From Thermosipho atlanticus DSM 15807 (GTDB lineage Bacteria; Thermotogota; Thermotogae; Thermotogales; Fervidobacteriaceae), in assembly GCF_900129985.1 (NCBI RefSeq), contig NZ_FQXN01000001.1:310001-374000 (forward strand): DNA of 64,000 bases, written 5' to 3'. The notes under the pieces are model-generated. The model was not told the origin of the DNA, ran no database searches, and saw only the letters and a program-made list of their open reading frames with translations. This document shows, piece by piece, positions 46,660 to 51,491 of the stretch (position 1 is its first letter; each line of letters starts with the position of its first letter). The translations under genes were made by a program, and so were the position numbers.

Positions 46660-47693
46660 ACTGCTGAATATTTTATCCTAAAGCCATGAGTTTCTCCTAC
46701 TTTTCTATTTAATCCTTTAATCATTGCTCTAACACAATCTATGCAAGCTGTATCTGCTTCGAATAAGCAAATTTTATTTGGATATAAAGTGTAATTTGGG
46801 CGATAAGGATTGGGAGTCAGGTTCGGCATTATTACATTTGCCCCACATTTCAATGCTAGTTGTCTGCCAAATGGGTGAATACTTCCCATTGCAGTGGTAG
46901 CTGGTATATTGGCTGTTGGTATTAAAATTCTTGCTAAAGCAATTACTTTTAGAGTAGTGTTTAAATCACCACCTTTTTCACTCTTCAATGGAGTATCTGG
47001 ATTTGGAATGAAGGGACCAATACCTATCATATCTGAATCAAGTTCTCTTAGAAAAATTAAATCTTTTGCAAGTTCTTTAGGGCCCTGTCCAGGTAATCCG
47101 ACCATACACCCTGCTCCTACTTCATATCCTAGTTCTTTTAATTTGAATAAATGTTTTTTTCTGTTTTCAAAAGTATCACTGGGATGAAGTTTTTTATACA
47201 GCTTTGAATCTGCTGTTTCATGTCTCATTAGATATCTATCTGCTCCTGCTTCTTTCCAAATTTTATATTCTTCAAATTCTCTTTCTCCAATACTTAAAGT
47301 AACAGCTACTCCTAATTTTTTTATTTCAATAATTAGATCTTTGATAATTTCAGTTGTGTAAAATGGATCTTCTCCAGACTGAAGAACAATAGTTTTAATA
47401 TTTCTTTCGGCAATTAGTTTAGCACGTTCTAGAATTTCTTCGGGTTTCATTCTATATCTTTTTAAGTTTTTATTTTGTTTTCTAAGTCCGCAATATAGAC
47501 AATCCATTTTGCAAATATTAGAAAATTCAATGATTGCCCGTATATGAACTTCGTTTCCTACATATTTTTTTCTTATTTGATCGGCAAGTTCAAATATTTG
47601 CTGGTCGTATTTATCTGTAGAAAGCAAATAGACTAGTTCTTCATATGTAATTGAATCTTTTTTTGTTTTTAATTTATTTATAATTTCTGACAA
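46656..47693 (-). CDS. hydE: [FeFe]-hydrogenase maturase HydE
   Basis: 345 residues. Radical SAM cluster motif CKMDCLYCGLRKQN (C-x3-C-x2-C), IVLQSGEDPFYT, RYLMRHETADSKLYKKLHPSD, GCMVGLPGQG, GPFIPNPDTPL are those of HydE (TM1269 type), which helps build the 2Fe subcluster of the H-cluster. TTG 47693 lies 6 bases after GAGGTGA (47700-47706). The start overlaps the small gene upstream by 20 bases. Confidence 0.94.
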   Translation of the reverse strand: MSEIINKLKTKKDSITYEELVYLLSTDKYDQQIFELADQIRKKYVGNEVHIRAIIEFSNICKMDCLYCGLRKQNKNLKRYRMKPEEILERAKLIAERNIKTIVLQSGEDPFYTTEIIKDLIIEIKKLGVAVTLSIGEREFEEYKIWKEAGADRYLMRHETADSKLYKKLHPSDTFENRKKHLFKLKELGYEVGAGCMVGLPGQGPKELAKDLIFLRELDSDMIGIGPFIPNPDTPLKSEKGGDLNTTLKVIALARILIPTANIPATTAMGSIHPFGRQLALKCGANVIMPNLTPNPYRPNYTLYPNKICLFEADTACIDCVRAMIKGLNRKVGETHGFRIKYSAV

Positions 47694-47934
47694 TTTTAAT
47701 CACCTCGTTGAGTAATTGATTAAATTCAATATCTTTAGTGTTTACATTTTCACCGAAGATTACATAGTTTTCATTTTCCCACAAAATTTCTGGTGGGAGA
47801 TAGTATTCTTTTCCTGCTTTTAGTCCTTCAATATATGATATGCGTCTGCCTATTTTTTGACACACCCAAATTTTACATTGATATTTTTCTGCTATTTGAT
47901 TTAAAGTATTTTTTAGTTTCTTAAAATCTAACAT
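47674..47934 (-). CDS. Small conserved-context protein between hydG and hydE
   Basis: 86 residues, no signal peptide or membrane helix; no family recognised. The visible pattern is KYQCKIWVCQKIGRRISYIEGL with two Cys six apart, then basic and aromatic residues. ATG 47934 is taken, 5 bases after AGGTGA in the end of hydG; the gene overlaps hydG by 14 bases and hydE by 20. Such tight packing between two maturases suggests a role in hydrogenase assembly or its control. In Thermotoga the order TM1266-hydG-(small gene)-hydE appears, as I recall it, to be the same. Confidence 0.6.
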   Translation of the reverse strand: MLDFKKLKNTLNQIAEKYQCKIWVCQKIGRRISYIEGLKAGKEYYLPPEILWENENYVIFGENVNTKDIEFNQLLNEVIKIVRNYK

Positions 47935-49336
47935 CTCTTTCACCTTTGTCTATTTTTTCAAGACCTTCTATGATTTTTGACCTTTGATTTTCAGAAATTT
48001 TATTAAGTTCGATTTGTATTTTTTCTTTTCCAAGAAGTTTGGTTTGTTTTGAAGCATAGTCATTTAGATATTCGTTTAAAGTAAATAGAGCATTAGGAGT
48101 ACAAAATCTTTTAACAAAACCAGGAATTGCAAATTCCATGAAATGTTCACCGGTTCTTCCGGCTCTGTAACATGCGGTACAGAATGAGGGTATATAATTT
48201 TCTCTTAACAACTCATATATTACTTCATCTAAAGTTCTTGTATCACCAAGTATAAATTGACTTTTTTTAACTACCTCAGGATCCGTTTCCGAATATGATC
48301 CGACACCAATACTTGAACCTGCATCAATTTGTGAAACTCCAAGTTTTAAAACTTCTTTTCGTATTTGAATAGGCTCCCTTGCAGTTAAAATCAATCCTGT
48401 GTATGGTACAGCAAGTCTTAATACAGCAACTAAACGCTTAAAATCTTCATCATTTACTTGATATGGAGGTCTTTCAGCTATAGGTGTTCCAACTGCAGGT
48501 TCAATTCTTGGAAAAGAGATTGTATGTGGCCCTACGCCAAATCTTTCTTCAAGATGAATTGTATGATAAATAAGCCCCATGACTTCAAATTTCCAATTGT
48601 ACAATCCAAATAGAGCACCTATGCCAACGTCATCTATTCCAGCAAGCATTGCTCTATCAAGGCCGTATAATCTCCAAGCAAAATTTGATTTTGGCCCTCT
48701 AGGGTGCATTTTTTTGTATGTTGGATAATGATATGTTTCTTGAAAGATTTGGTAGGTTCCGATTCCTACTTCTTTAATTAACTTATATCCATCAATTGTT
48801 TGTGGTGCTGCATTTACATTTACTCGCCTAATTTCTCCATTACCAAGTTTTGTATTGTATATAACATCGATAGTTTTTGAAATAAATTCGGGTGAGTATT
48901 TTGGATGTTCACCATATACTACTATAAGTCTTTTATGACCTTTTGAAACGAGCGCTTTAACTTCGTTTCTAAGTTCATCTAGGGACAAAGTTTTTCGAAT
49001 TACATCTTTGTTTGAAATTCTGAATCCACAGTATTCACAATCATTTACACATTCGTTTCCAATATATAATGGTGCAAAAAGAACAATTCTGTTTCCGTAA
49101 ACTTTTTCTTTGAGTGTTCTTGCAGCATGGAAAATTTCTTCCCATTGTTCTTTGTTTTTTGCATTTAAAAGTGTTGCAACTTCATCTGGTTCTAACCTTT
49201 GTTTTGATAAAGATTTTTGGAGTATCTCTTTGATTTTGAAGTCATCAGGATCTGAATTTTCTTCAAGTAATCGATTGATTTCTTCTTCATTTACAAAAGT
49301 TCTTTCTTGCTCATTTTCTTTCACAAAAACATACAT
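47921..49336 (-). CDS. hydG: [FeFe]-hydrogenase maturase HydG
   Basis: 471 residues. Radical SAM motif CVNDCEYCGFRISN (C-x3-C-x2-C), QETYHYPTYKKMHPRGPKSN, and a C-terminal second cluster motif CTACYRAGRTGEHFM (C-x2-C) that supplies the CO/CN-bearing Fe. HydG splits tyrosine to make CO and CN. ATG 49336 lies after GGGGTGA; a 9-residue upstream extension is unlikely. Upstream is the TM1266-like gene, which ends 11 bases before. Confidence 0.96.
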   Translation of the reverse strand: MYVFVKENEQERTFVNEEEINRLLEENSDPDDFKIKEILQKSLSKQRLEPDEVATLLNAKNKEQWEEIFHAARTLKEKVYGNRIVLFAPLYIGNECVNDCEYCGFRISNKDVIRKTLSLDELRNEVKALVSKGHKRLIVVYGEHPKYSPEFISKTIDVIYNTKLGNGEIRRVNVNAAPQTIDGYKLIKEVGIGTYQIFQETYHYPTYKKMHPRGPKSNFAWRLYGLDRAMLAGIDDVGIGALFGLYNWKFEVMGLIYHTIHLEERFGVGPHTISFPRIEPAVGTPIAERPPYQVNDEDFKRLVAVLRLAVPYTGLILTAREPIQIRKEVLKLGVSQIDAGSSIGVGSYSETDPEVVKKSQFILGDTRTLDEVIYELLRENYIPSFCTACYRAGRTGEHFMEFAIPGFVKRFCTPNALFTLNEYLNDYASKQTKLLGKEKIQIELNKISENQRSKIIEGLEKIDKGERDVRF

Positions 49337-49346
49337 ATTATCACCC

Positions 49347-49592
49347 CTAATTTGTAATTGCAATACTTTTCACTTTTACACTTTTTATCTGCCCCAATTT
49401 ACCTGTAAAGCTGCCTAGTTTGTCGTTGTTCGCCTTAAAAATTAAAAATATGACTGCCATATTTTCTTTTTCTAATGGATAACCAACTCTCAATTTGATA
49501 TATTTTGCAAATTGATGAAGAAGTTCATTAACTTTATCATACGCATCGTCCCTGTTATGAACAATTATATCTATTGTGTAGTACCTTTCCAT
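49347..49592 (-). CDS. TM1266-like hydrogenase-system regulator
   Basis: 81 residues. MERYYTIDIIVHNRDDAYDKVNELLHQF, VGYPLEKENMAVIFLIFKA and LGSFTGKLGQI match the TM1266 family (iron-only hydrogenase system regulator), a NikR-C/ACT-like fold with no DNA-binding domain. It may sense a metabolite or act on the maturases. Its ATG (49590-49592) and SD (GGAAGGGGG) are embedded in the switch structure described at 49593-49703. Confidence 0.88.
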   Translation of the reverse strand: MERYYTIDIIVHNRDDAYDKVNELLHQFAKYIKLRVGYPLEKENMAVIFLIFKANNDKLGSFTGKLGQIKSVKVKSIAITN

Positions 49593-49703
49593 AAAAATCC
49601 CCCTTCCTTTTTCGACACCAAGGAAGGGGGAATTATTATACTTAATATACTTACTTTCTCCCCTTTCCTTGGTGTCAGGATTACTCCCTTCACCTCAGAA
49701 AGG
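49593..49703 (-). promoter_or_regulatory. Candidate riboswitch/attenuator leader of the hydrogenase-maturation genes
   Basis: Reverse-strand RNA, 5' to 3'. (1) 49703-49662: stem CCUUUC/GAAAGG, 3x3 internal loop UGA/AAG, stem GGUG/CACC, internal loop AAG/UGA, stem GGA/UCC, GUAA tetraloop. (2) The segment 49676-49659 (GACACCAAGGAAAGGGGA) pairs with 49631-49614 in 17 of 18 positions, using the 3' half of (1). (3) 49631-49622 (UCCCCCUUCC) pairs perfectly over 10 bp with 49607-49598 (GGAAGGGGGA), which holds the SD and is followed by U5 and AUG. Helix 1 excludes 2, and 2 excludes 3. Ligand-bound 1 would thus let 3 form (off); free RNA would form 2 (on). No known class recognised; no strong promoter seen, so transcription may come from hydA. 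Confidence 0.75.
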
Positions 49704-49739: not shown

Positions 49740-51491
49740 TTAACTTGACATAGCTTTATCTTTGTTTTTTGTCCTATCAGTGTAATATGTGTGTAGTAAT
49801 TTGTGAGCAATATGACTATATGGTTTTTCAAGAAATTCTGCATATAGTTTTTGGACATCTGGATTCTCATGAGATCTTCTAAGTGTGCTTCTTTCATCAA
49901 TTGTGTAAATTGCATTAGCACGTTTTTGTAAAATCTCTGGATCAAGACTTTTTGGTTGTCCTCCACCGCCAATACATCCTCCAAGACAAGCCATTATTTC
50001 AACAAAATCGTAATATCTTCTACCATCTTTCATATCATCAAGTAATCTTTTAACACTTGCCGTACCGTGAGCAATTGCAACTTTGAATTTCTTACCTTTA
50101 ATATCAATTTCAGCTTCTCTTATTCCTTCTAATCCTCTAACAGCCGTAAATTCAAGTTTTGGAAGTTTTTCTTCGGTTAAGATTTCATATGCAGTTCTAA
50201 GAGCTGCTTCCATAACTCCACCAGTTACGCCAAAGATTGCACCTGCTCCTGTTGATGTACCAAGTGGGTTATCGTATTCTTCGTCAGGTAATCCCATGAA
50301 ATTGATTTCTTTAAATTTGATTAATTTAGCAAATTCTCTTGTTGTAATTACATAATCTGTTGCTTTGATTTCTCTTCCATCTTCCAACTTTATTTTTTGC
50401 TGAGGTCTTGTTATCTCGTCTTTCTTTGCGGTACAAGGCATAATTGACACAACAACTATATCTTCCGGATCTACTCCGATTTTCTTAGCAAAATATGTTT
50501 TAATAACAGAACTCATCATTTGCTGAGGAGACTTTGCGCTTGAAACATTATTTATAAATTCAGGATATTGCTTTTCAAGAAGATTTATCCACCCTGGACA
50601 ACAGCTAGTAAACATTGGGAATGGTCCACCCTCTTTTAATCTGTGAATTAATTCCGTTCCTTCTTCCATAATTGTAAGGTCAGCTGCAAAATTTGTATCA
50701 AATACGTAATCAAAACCAAGCCGTTTTACAGCTGCAACCATTTTTCCAGTACTAATTGAACCTGGTTCCATTCCGAATTCTTCACCAATTGCTACTCTAA
50801 CAGCAGGTGCTGTTTGAGCAATAAGAATTTTATCTTTTCTTTCGATTAATCTCAAAACTTTTTTCCAATCAGGTGTTTCGTATATTGCACCGACAGGACA
50901 AAGGTTAGCACACTGACCACAAGAAATACAATCAGTTTCATATACTGGTACATCAAAAGCAGTTTGTGGGATCGTTTTATAACCCCTTTCAATCATTGAA
51001 TAAATGTTCATACCTTGAATTTCGCTACATACTCTAACACATCTTTGACATTTAATACATCGTGAAAGATCTCTTTGAATGGAAGGGCTACTGTCATCAA
51101 AAACGTCAGATAAATCAGTGGGAGGAAATAATGGTCTTACGTCATATATATGCACAAGCTTTTTTAGCTCACATCTTTGATCAGCTTCACAATACATACA
51201 GTCATTTGGATGATTTGCCATTATTAAAGAAAGATTAAATTTTATAGAGTTTACTACTCTATCAGAGTTGGTTTTTATTTTCATGCCATCATATACTTTT
51301 GTTGTACATGCAGGTTGAAGTGTTCTAGCCCCTTCGATTTCAACCACACAAACTCTACAAGCCCCAATTGGTTCAAGTTCAGGATGATGACAAAGCGTAG
51401 GAATCTGCAAACCTATTTTCTGAGCAGCTTCTAGTACTGTTATGTTTTCAGGGACTTCGTATTCTTTGTTGTTTATAAAGATTTTTACCAT
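49740..51491 (-). CDS. [FeFe] hydrogenase, CpI-like
   Basis: 583 residues. Domains: [2Fe-2S] ferredoxin (residues 1-75; CHHPELEPIGACRVC), a His-Cys3 cluster (HPNDCMYCEADQRCEL), two [4Fe-4S] sets (CIKCQRCVRVCS, CISCGQCANLCP), then the H-cluster domain: FTSCCPGWINL (L1, about residue 300, with the proton-relay Cys), IMPCTAKKDE (L2, about 355) and MACLGGCIGGGGQP (L3, about 500). The short tail lacks extra domains, so it resembles monomeric clostridial CpI or T. maritima TM0201, and no HydB or HydC partner is adjacent. GAGGAGGGA precedes ATG 51491; a TATAAT for this strand is at 51592-51597. Confidence 0.93.
   Translation of the reverse strand: MVKIFINNKEYEVPENITVLEAAQKIGLQIPTLCHHPELEPIGACRVCVVEIEGARTLQPACTTKVYDGMKIKTNSDRVVNSIKFNLSLIMANHPNDCMYCEADQRCELKKLVHIYDVRPLFPPTDLSDVFDDSSPSIQRDLSRCIKCQRCVRVCSEIQGMNIYSMIERGYKTIPQTAFDVPVYETDCISCGQCANLCPVGAIYETPDWKKVLRLIERKDKILIAQTAPAVRVAIGEEFGMEPGSISTGKMVAAVKRLGFDYVFDTNFAADLTIMEEGTELIHRLKEGGPFPMFTSCCPGWINLLEKQYPEFINNVSSAKSPQQMMSSVIKTYFAKKIGVDPEDIVVVSIMPCTAKKDEITRPQQKIKLEDGREIKATDYVITTREFAKLIKFKEINFMGLPDEEYDNPLGTSTGAGAIFGVTGGVMEAALRTAYEILTEEKLPKLEFTAVRGLEGIREAEIDIKGKKFKVAIAHGTASVKRLLDDMKDGRRYYDFVEIMACLGGCIGGGGQPKSLDPEILQKRANAIYTIDERSTLRRSHENPDVQKLYAEFLEKPYSHIAHKLLHTYYTDRTKNKDKAMSS

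Follow-up and report, generated by a model that had tools for sequence, protein, structure and literature searches.

Much of the hydrogen made by anaerobic microbes comes from [FeFe] hydrogenases and, to our knowledge, little is known of how cells control the level of the HydEFG machinery. The question raised by the locus studied here is whether the RNA leader that precedes the hydrogenase-maturation genes of Thermosipho atlanticus is a regulatory switch and, if so, what would operate it. The leader lies on the minus strand at 49593-49703 of the window, the whole 64,000-nucleotide stretch of DNA that was analyzed. A preliminary description made from the letters of the window had proposed a new riboswitch.

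The maturation operon

The first gene after the leader encodes an 81-residue TM1266-like protein (49347-49592, minus strand, as are all the genes given here; NCBIfam TIGR03959, Pfam PF21699). It is followed by the H-cluster maturase gene hydG (TIGR03955; 47921-49363, the 5′ end being that of the open reading frame list and the true start uncertain), a small gene (47674-47943) and a second H-cluster maturase gene, hydE (TIGR03956; 46656-47693). The product of the small gene matched nothing in Pfam or NCBIfam and, among the loci examined, genes of its type were met only in Thermotogota; small genes of similar size lie between hydG and hydE in several families of that phylum (L085, L093, L096). 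The upstream neighbor is hydA (49740-51491), which encodes an [FeFe] hydrogenase of group A6, and in Thermosipho the leader lies 37 nt behind it. A promoter search listed no match in this short gap, and hence transcription of hydA probably reads through into the leader. The earlier proposal that the TM1266-like gene, hydG, the small gene and hydE are switched apart from hydA holds in this genus. The hydF gene of the same genome has no copy of the RNA.

Three mutually exclusive helices in the leader

Direct reading of the minus strand, folding, covariance modeling and pair counts all gave a 42-nt sensor, or anti-antiterminator, hairpin at 49662-49703 with the sequence CCUUUC-UGA-GGUG-AAG-GGA-GUAA-UCC-UGA-CACC-AAG-GAAAGG. 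Its outer stem P1 pairs 49703-49698 with 49667-49662 and is followed by a first internal loop (UGA 49697-49695 facing AAG 49670-49668), the 4-bp stem P2 (GGUG 49694-49691 with CACC 49674-49671), a second internal loop (AAG 49690-49688 facing UGA 49677-49675) and P3 (49687-49685 with 49680-49678), which is closed by the GUAA tetraloop 49684-49681. Each strand of the hairpin carries UGA-N4-AAG. The 3′ half-site and the 3′ strand of P1 also constitute the 5′ strand of an antiterminator (49659-49676), the 3′ strand of which is 49614-49631. Part of the latter (49631-49620) doubles as the 5′ arm of a terminator (49593-49631) having a 12-bp stem (49631-49620 with 49609-49598). The terminator 3′ arm contains the likely Shine-Dalgarno (SD) sequence AAGGGGG, and its U5 tract (49597-49593) abuts the AUG start codon at 49592. 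Three mutually exclusive helices and a terminator with a U-tract is the arrangement of an attenuator.

These structures agree closely with the preliminary description. The hairpin with two 3x3 loops, a 4-bp stem and a GUAA loop matched the minus-strand sequence exactly, the 18-bp antiterminator said to contain one mismatch pairs at 17 of its 18 positions (49676-49659 with 49631-49614), and the 10-bp terminator-like helix pairs at all ten (49631-49622 with 49607-49598) and was given as 12 bp by RNAfold. The folding energy of the leader was -46.7 kcal/mol (z = -4.68); a set of 200 dinucleotide shuffles averaged -28.1 ± 4.0, and not one of them folded as well. Upon stepwise folding the antiterminator structure was the minimum free energy fold until the 3′ arm of the terminator was almost complete, and in the nearly full-length leader the OFF and ON folds differed by only about 1 kcal/mol (-45.9 versus -44.8). 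The leader is a balanced switch.

Covariation and dyad symmetry of the hairpin

Compensatory changes in related leaders, the evidence upon which the preliminary description had made its proposal depend, were found and the covariation was strong. In an alignment (A5) of 51 sequences from several phyla, which was fitted to the covariance model and so leans towards the structure, 91.3% of the cells pair versus 71.2% upon shuffling and 35-59% when the partners were slid, and 145 cells had changed on both sides versus 53.8 in shuffles. The covariation score was 0.431 as compared with 0.161 ± 0.012 for shuffles (none of 500 equaled it) and at most 0.138 for slid partners. The bias is tempered by half-site anchors that hardly vary, and the score of the original MAFFT alignment (A1) was already raised (0.296 versus 0.142). 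Parsimony on the TM1266 protein tree called for a minimum of 5 and 7 changes of Watson-Crick class at two pairs of P2, 5 at one of P1 and 10 at one of P3, that is, several independent compensatory changes per pair as in a structured RNA family.

The hairpin is composed of two like half-sites, UGA-N4-RAG, arranged as a dyad about the 4-bp stem. The half-site consensus is the same in both: a U.G pair (48 of 51 and 47 of 51 sequences), then G.A or A.A, and third A.R. Read on opposite strands, the two internal loops are identical in sequence, and they are separated by 4 bp beyond which the order is mirrored; the site is therefore pseudo-twofold and would suit a homodimeric protein. The G.A pairs suggested a kink-turn, a motif that requires a 3-nt bulge; the loops are symmetric (3x3) and have no such bulge, and this candidate was rejected.

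Distribution and regulon

The TM1266-like gene was present in 18 of the 20 genomes examined from this family, and in 15 of the 18 the hairpin was found 58-166 nt upstream of the orthologous gene. In the other three (G001, G003, G005) hydA is immediately followed by TM1266, and the RNA is upstream of hydA instead. The hairpin covariance model R1 gave 78 matches in 64 of 103 Thermotogota genomes, which were assigned to genes by the coordinates of TM1266, HydG, HydF and the flanking reading frames. All but one precede [FeFe]-hydrogenase genes: 52 lie before TM1266, 13 before hydF, 8 before hydG (TM1266 being sited elsewhere), 3 before hydA and 1 before hydE, the exception (L092 of G036) preceding an ABC transporter gene.

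A second model (R2) was applied to 80 TM1266 loci from many phyla and gave sense-strand matches just before TM1266 or the next hydG in Omnitrophota, Clostridia, a Syntrophus MAG, Auribacterota and others. The Thermoanaerobacteria yielded 19 credible genomes, all having the RNA directly before hydG with TM1266 elsewhere. Most TM1266-bearing Clostridia gave no covariance-model match, and a relaxed scan showed degenerate forms upstream. Caldicellulosiruptor-like genomes have a diverged form beyond the reach of the model (CUGA-CUUA-GAGG .. CUGA-UAAG-GAGG) before TM1266, and other putative Clostridia have degenerate forms such as CUGA-CCGC-AAGG .. CUGA-GCGG-AAAGG (L306). A strict regular expression found 13 upstream matches in the 80 loci (0.06 expected), missing many of the members outside Thermotogota, and the relaxed scan found 33 in 108 versus 12 in 540 shuffles and none in 540 background windows, its recovery still being incomplete. 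Matches in Caldicellulosiruptor-like genomes that fell within rpoC-like reading frames (L265, L266, L268), and those before a murD-like gene (L236, L238), were judged to be due to chance. We regard it as virtually certain that this regulatory RNA family is real and belongs to the [FeFe]-hydrogenase regulon; it is ancient and common to several bacterial phyla.

Several neighbors of the RNA deserve mention. A copy precedes a membrane protein resembling an ECF-transporter S component at L289 (G270), and in the Thermotogae genome G023 (L132/L142) an ECF-transporter S-like gene is directly before TM1266; such neighbors may hint at a ligand or its precursor. In Sedimentibacter and relatives (L155, L208, L164) the gene after TM1266 encodes a substrate-binding lipoprotein with the look of an SsuA/NMT1-type ABC transporter. 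The RNA of G277 (L287) precedes a gene resembling aspartate ammonia-lyase, and an aspartate ammonia-lyase-like gene follows hydF at four Thermotogota loci (L084, L086, L101, L102). At five Clostridia loci (L176, L207, L283, L288, L289) a second element, CUGACGAGAUGG .. UUAUCGAAGGGGG, plus a terminator comes after the hairpin or replaces it, and is possibly a tandem copy.

Comparison with known RNA classes

The preliminary description called for an Rfam search. At permissive E-values no Rfam 15 family reached its gathering score over the element, either in the window or at 17 other loci from several phyla, and only sub-threshold chance matches were returned. The PyrR-binding leader (RF00515) is similar in layout, having a protein-stabilized anti-antiterminator hairpin, an antiterminator and a terminator, and in being autogenous and located ahead of the gene of its regulator. 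A full-length match of RF00515 to the window scored 28 bits (E = 2.4) versus a gathering score of 54 bits. Moreover, the RNA of the window has its own half-site sequence, dyad symmetry and another regulon: it precedes TM1266 rather than pyrR, and the family lies before TM1266, hydG, hydF, hydA or hydE rather than pyrimidine genes. We therefore rejected a PyrR binding site, the likeness being one of layout alone. The hydrogenase RNA shares with metabolite riboswitches a single conserved core joined to interchangeable terminator or SD platforms, but differs in that the core is small, symmetric and without an Rfam match. In the open literature that was searched we found no description of the RNA or of TM1266 regulation; subscription papers lay outside the search and could hold an earlier description. 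The family is apparently undescribed so far.

The TM1266-like protein and its co-distribution with the RNA

The TM1266-like protein of the window scored well above the family cut-offs (100.7 versus 60.8 bits for TIGR03959; 95.2 versus 27 bits for PF21699). Its predicted structure is a single bab-bab domain (pLDDT 96.5) that takes up all 81 residues and superimposes on T. maritima TM1266 (2NZC) with a TM-score of 0.95. The model also matched the regulatory C-terminal domains of NikR (TM-score about 0.8) and ACT domains. NikR contacts DNA via an extra domain; as modeled, TM1266 is a NikR/ACT-type sensor domain and nothing more, so that a DNA-binding domain has no place in it. Two points count against a role in RNA binding: ACT-type domains mostly bind small molecules, and the proteins closest to TM1266 in structure included no free-standing regulator that binds RNA.

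TM1266 was present in all 64 Thermotogota genomes that have the RNA, and 67 genomes of the phylum exceeded the TM1266 cut-off. Five genomes (G066-G070) encode HydG, HydE and HydF and have neither TM1266, even at an E-value of 0.1, nor a hyd-linked RNA; a genome of the same genus (G071) has both at a syntenic site. The five losses fall in one clade and were probably a single deletion that took RNA and TM1266 together. TM1266 was found in 18 of the 19 RNA-containing Thermoanaerobacteria, the exception being fragmented, and with 8 of 9 credible Clostridia matches, in groups where TM1266 is common anyway; in G294 and the fragmented G157 the RNA was found and TM1266 was not detected. This co-occurrence has limited power because TM1266 is common in HydG-containing genomes (65 of 70 in Thermotogota and at least 34 of 36 in Thermoanaerobacteria). 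Most TM1266-containing Thermotogota genomes also encode a distant second paralogue that scores below the family cut-off (about 20-37 bits; L019-L023 among others).

The operon is regulated in T. neapolitana, as shown by RNA-seq of cells under CO2, where TM1266 (5.98), hydG (6.39) and hydE (7.52) rise together, by some 6- to 7.5-fold, and hydF is at 1.28 (PMC7039931); data of this kind do not tell the mechanism.

Expression platforms and direction of control

In nearly all of the terminator-type Thermotogota leaders the 3′ arm of the hairpin is complementary to the 5′ arm of the terminator. Across all phyla this complementarity exceeded that of 98% of shuffles in 62 of 88 leaders. In Omnitrophota the 5′ arm pairing with the terminator was only partly supported because the parsing of terminators was crude. 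A different platform is found in Thermoanaerobacter (before hydG) and in family f8, where the SD sequence lies inside the 3′ arm of the hairpin itself and the RNA precedes TM1266, hydF or a short open reading frame ahead of hydG. At four f8 loci of the last type (L085, L087, L089, L091) the 3′ arm carries the SD sequence of an apparent short open reading frame (about 13 codons in L085), with a terminator-like hairpin next and hydG after it, an arrangement resembling that of a leader peptide. From both platforms we infer that the stabilized hairpin is the OFF state.

What holds the hairpin?

From the computed RNA, its conservation, covariation and exclusive folds, the regulon and the co-distribution, we infer binding by TM1266, the direction of control and a ligand as follows. 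The leader is a cis-regulatory attenuator of a widespread family in which the hairpin competes with an antiterminator to which it contributes its own 3′ arm. Holding the hairpin would let the terminator form, end the transcript at the start codon and bury the SD sequence; when the hairpin is free, the antiterminator would form and TM1266, hydG, the small gene and hydE would be expressed. A dimer or tetramer of the TM1266-like protein would hold the hairpin, and a ligand bound in the ACT/NikR-like domain would gate the protein. The H-cluster assembly genes would thus be under PyrR-like feedback, with TM1266 repressing its own regulon. Judged from the genomic evidence we consider this statement as a whole probable. 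Four observations make TM1266 the likelier factor: the half-sites form a dyad, the RNA stands autogenously before TM1266, further copies precede hydG, hydF, hydA and hydE, and both RNA and TM1266 are missing from the five HydEFG genomes. In addition, the TM1266 gene is the first of the controlled operon, and the model of its product has no DNA-binding domain.

A true riboswitch, in which the hairpin is itself the receptor for a small molecule or metal (such as an H-cluster assembly product or substrate) and TM1266 is merely the first gene of the regulon, seems unlikely to us. It would account for the strictly conserved unpaired UGA/RAG residues and covarying stems, which are typical of aptamers, for the location of the RNA ahead of biosynthetic and in single cases transporter genes, and for a switch logic like that of metabolite OFF switches. 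However, the core is very small and has no multibranch junction or detected pseudoknot, its twofold symmetry suits a dimeric protein, and TM1266 accompanies the RNA in every Thermotogota carrier whereas the HydEFG genomes without TM1266 have no RNA. Of the "new riboswitch" of the preliminary description, the new structured switching leader of the maturation genes stands, and a riboswitch in the strict sense is less likely than control by a protein factor, which the description had itself listed among the possible ligands; a PyrR-like attenuator is in our analysis the best reading.

The protein side comes from genomics only, and the operon encodes other small conserved proteins (47674-47943 in the window), so another RNA-binding protein might hold the hairpin, with TM1266 a co-regulated sensor. 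We think this quite improbable, since the small gene has no family match and was met here only in Thermotogota while the RNA spans several phyla, and we found nothing else that follows the distribution of the RNA in the way TM1266 does. The faintest chance is given to a plain intergenic terminator that sets the ratio of hydA to the maturation operon without sensing. The position 37 nt behind hydA in this genus and the U-tract end are as such a terminator would have them, but it would need neither a symmetric hairpin nor a conserved antiterminator, and in other genera the leader heads independent operons, before hydG, hydF, hydA or hydE, or a buried SD sequence replaces the terminator.

Significance

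The apparently undescribed RNA family marks the [FeFe]-hydrogenase regulon across phyla and offers a testable role for TM1266, a "putative regulator" of solved structure that has no DNA-binding domain. Extending the PyrR-like attenuator beyond the window, we lean towards TM1266 being an RNA-binding repressor that acts on the dyad UGA-N4-RAG hairpin as a general feedback on H-cluster assembly, transcriptional or translational, in Thermotogota, Clostridia, Omnitrophota and other anaerobes. If true, TM1266 would represent a new class of RNA-binding regulator, and the switch would provide a handle for tuning hydrogen production in laboratory thermophiles.
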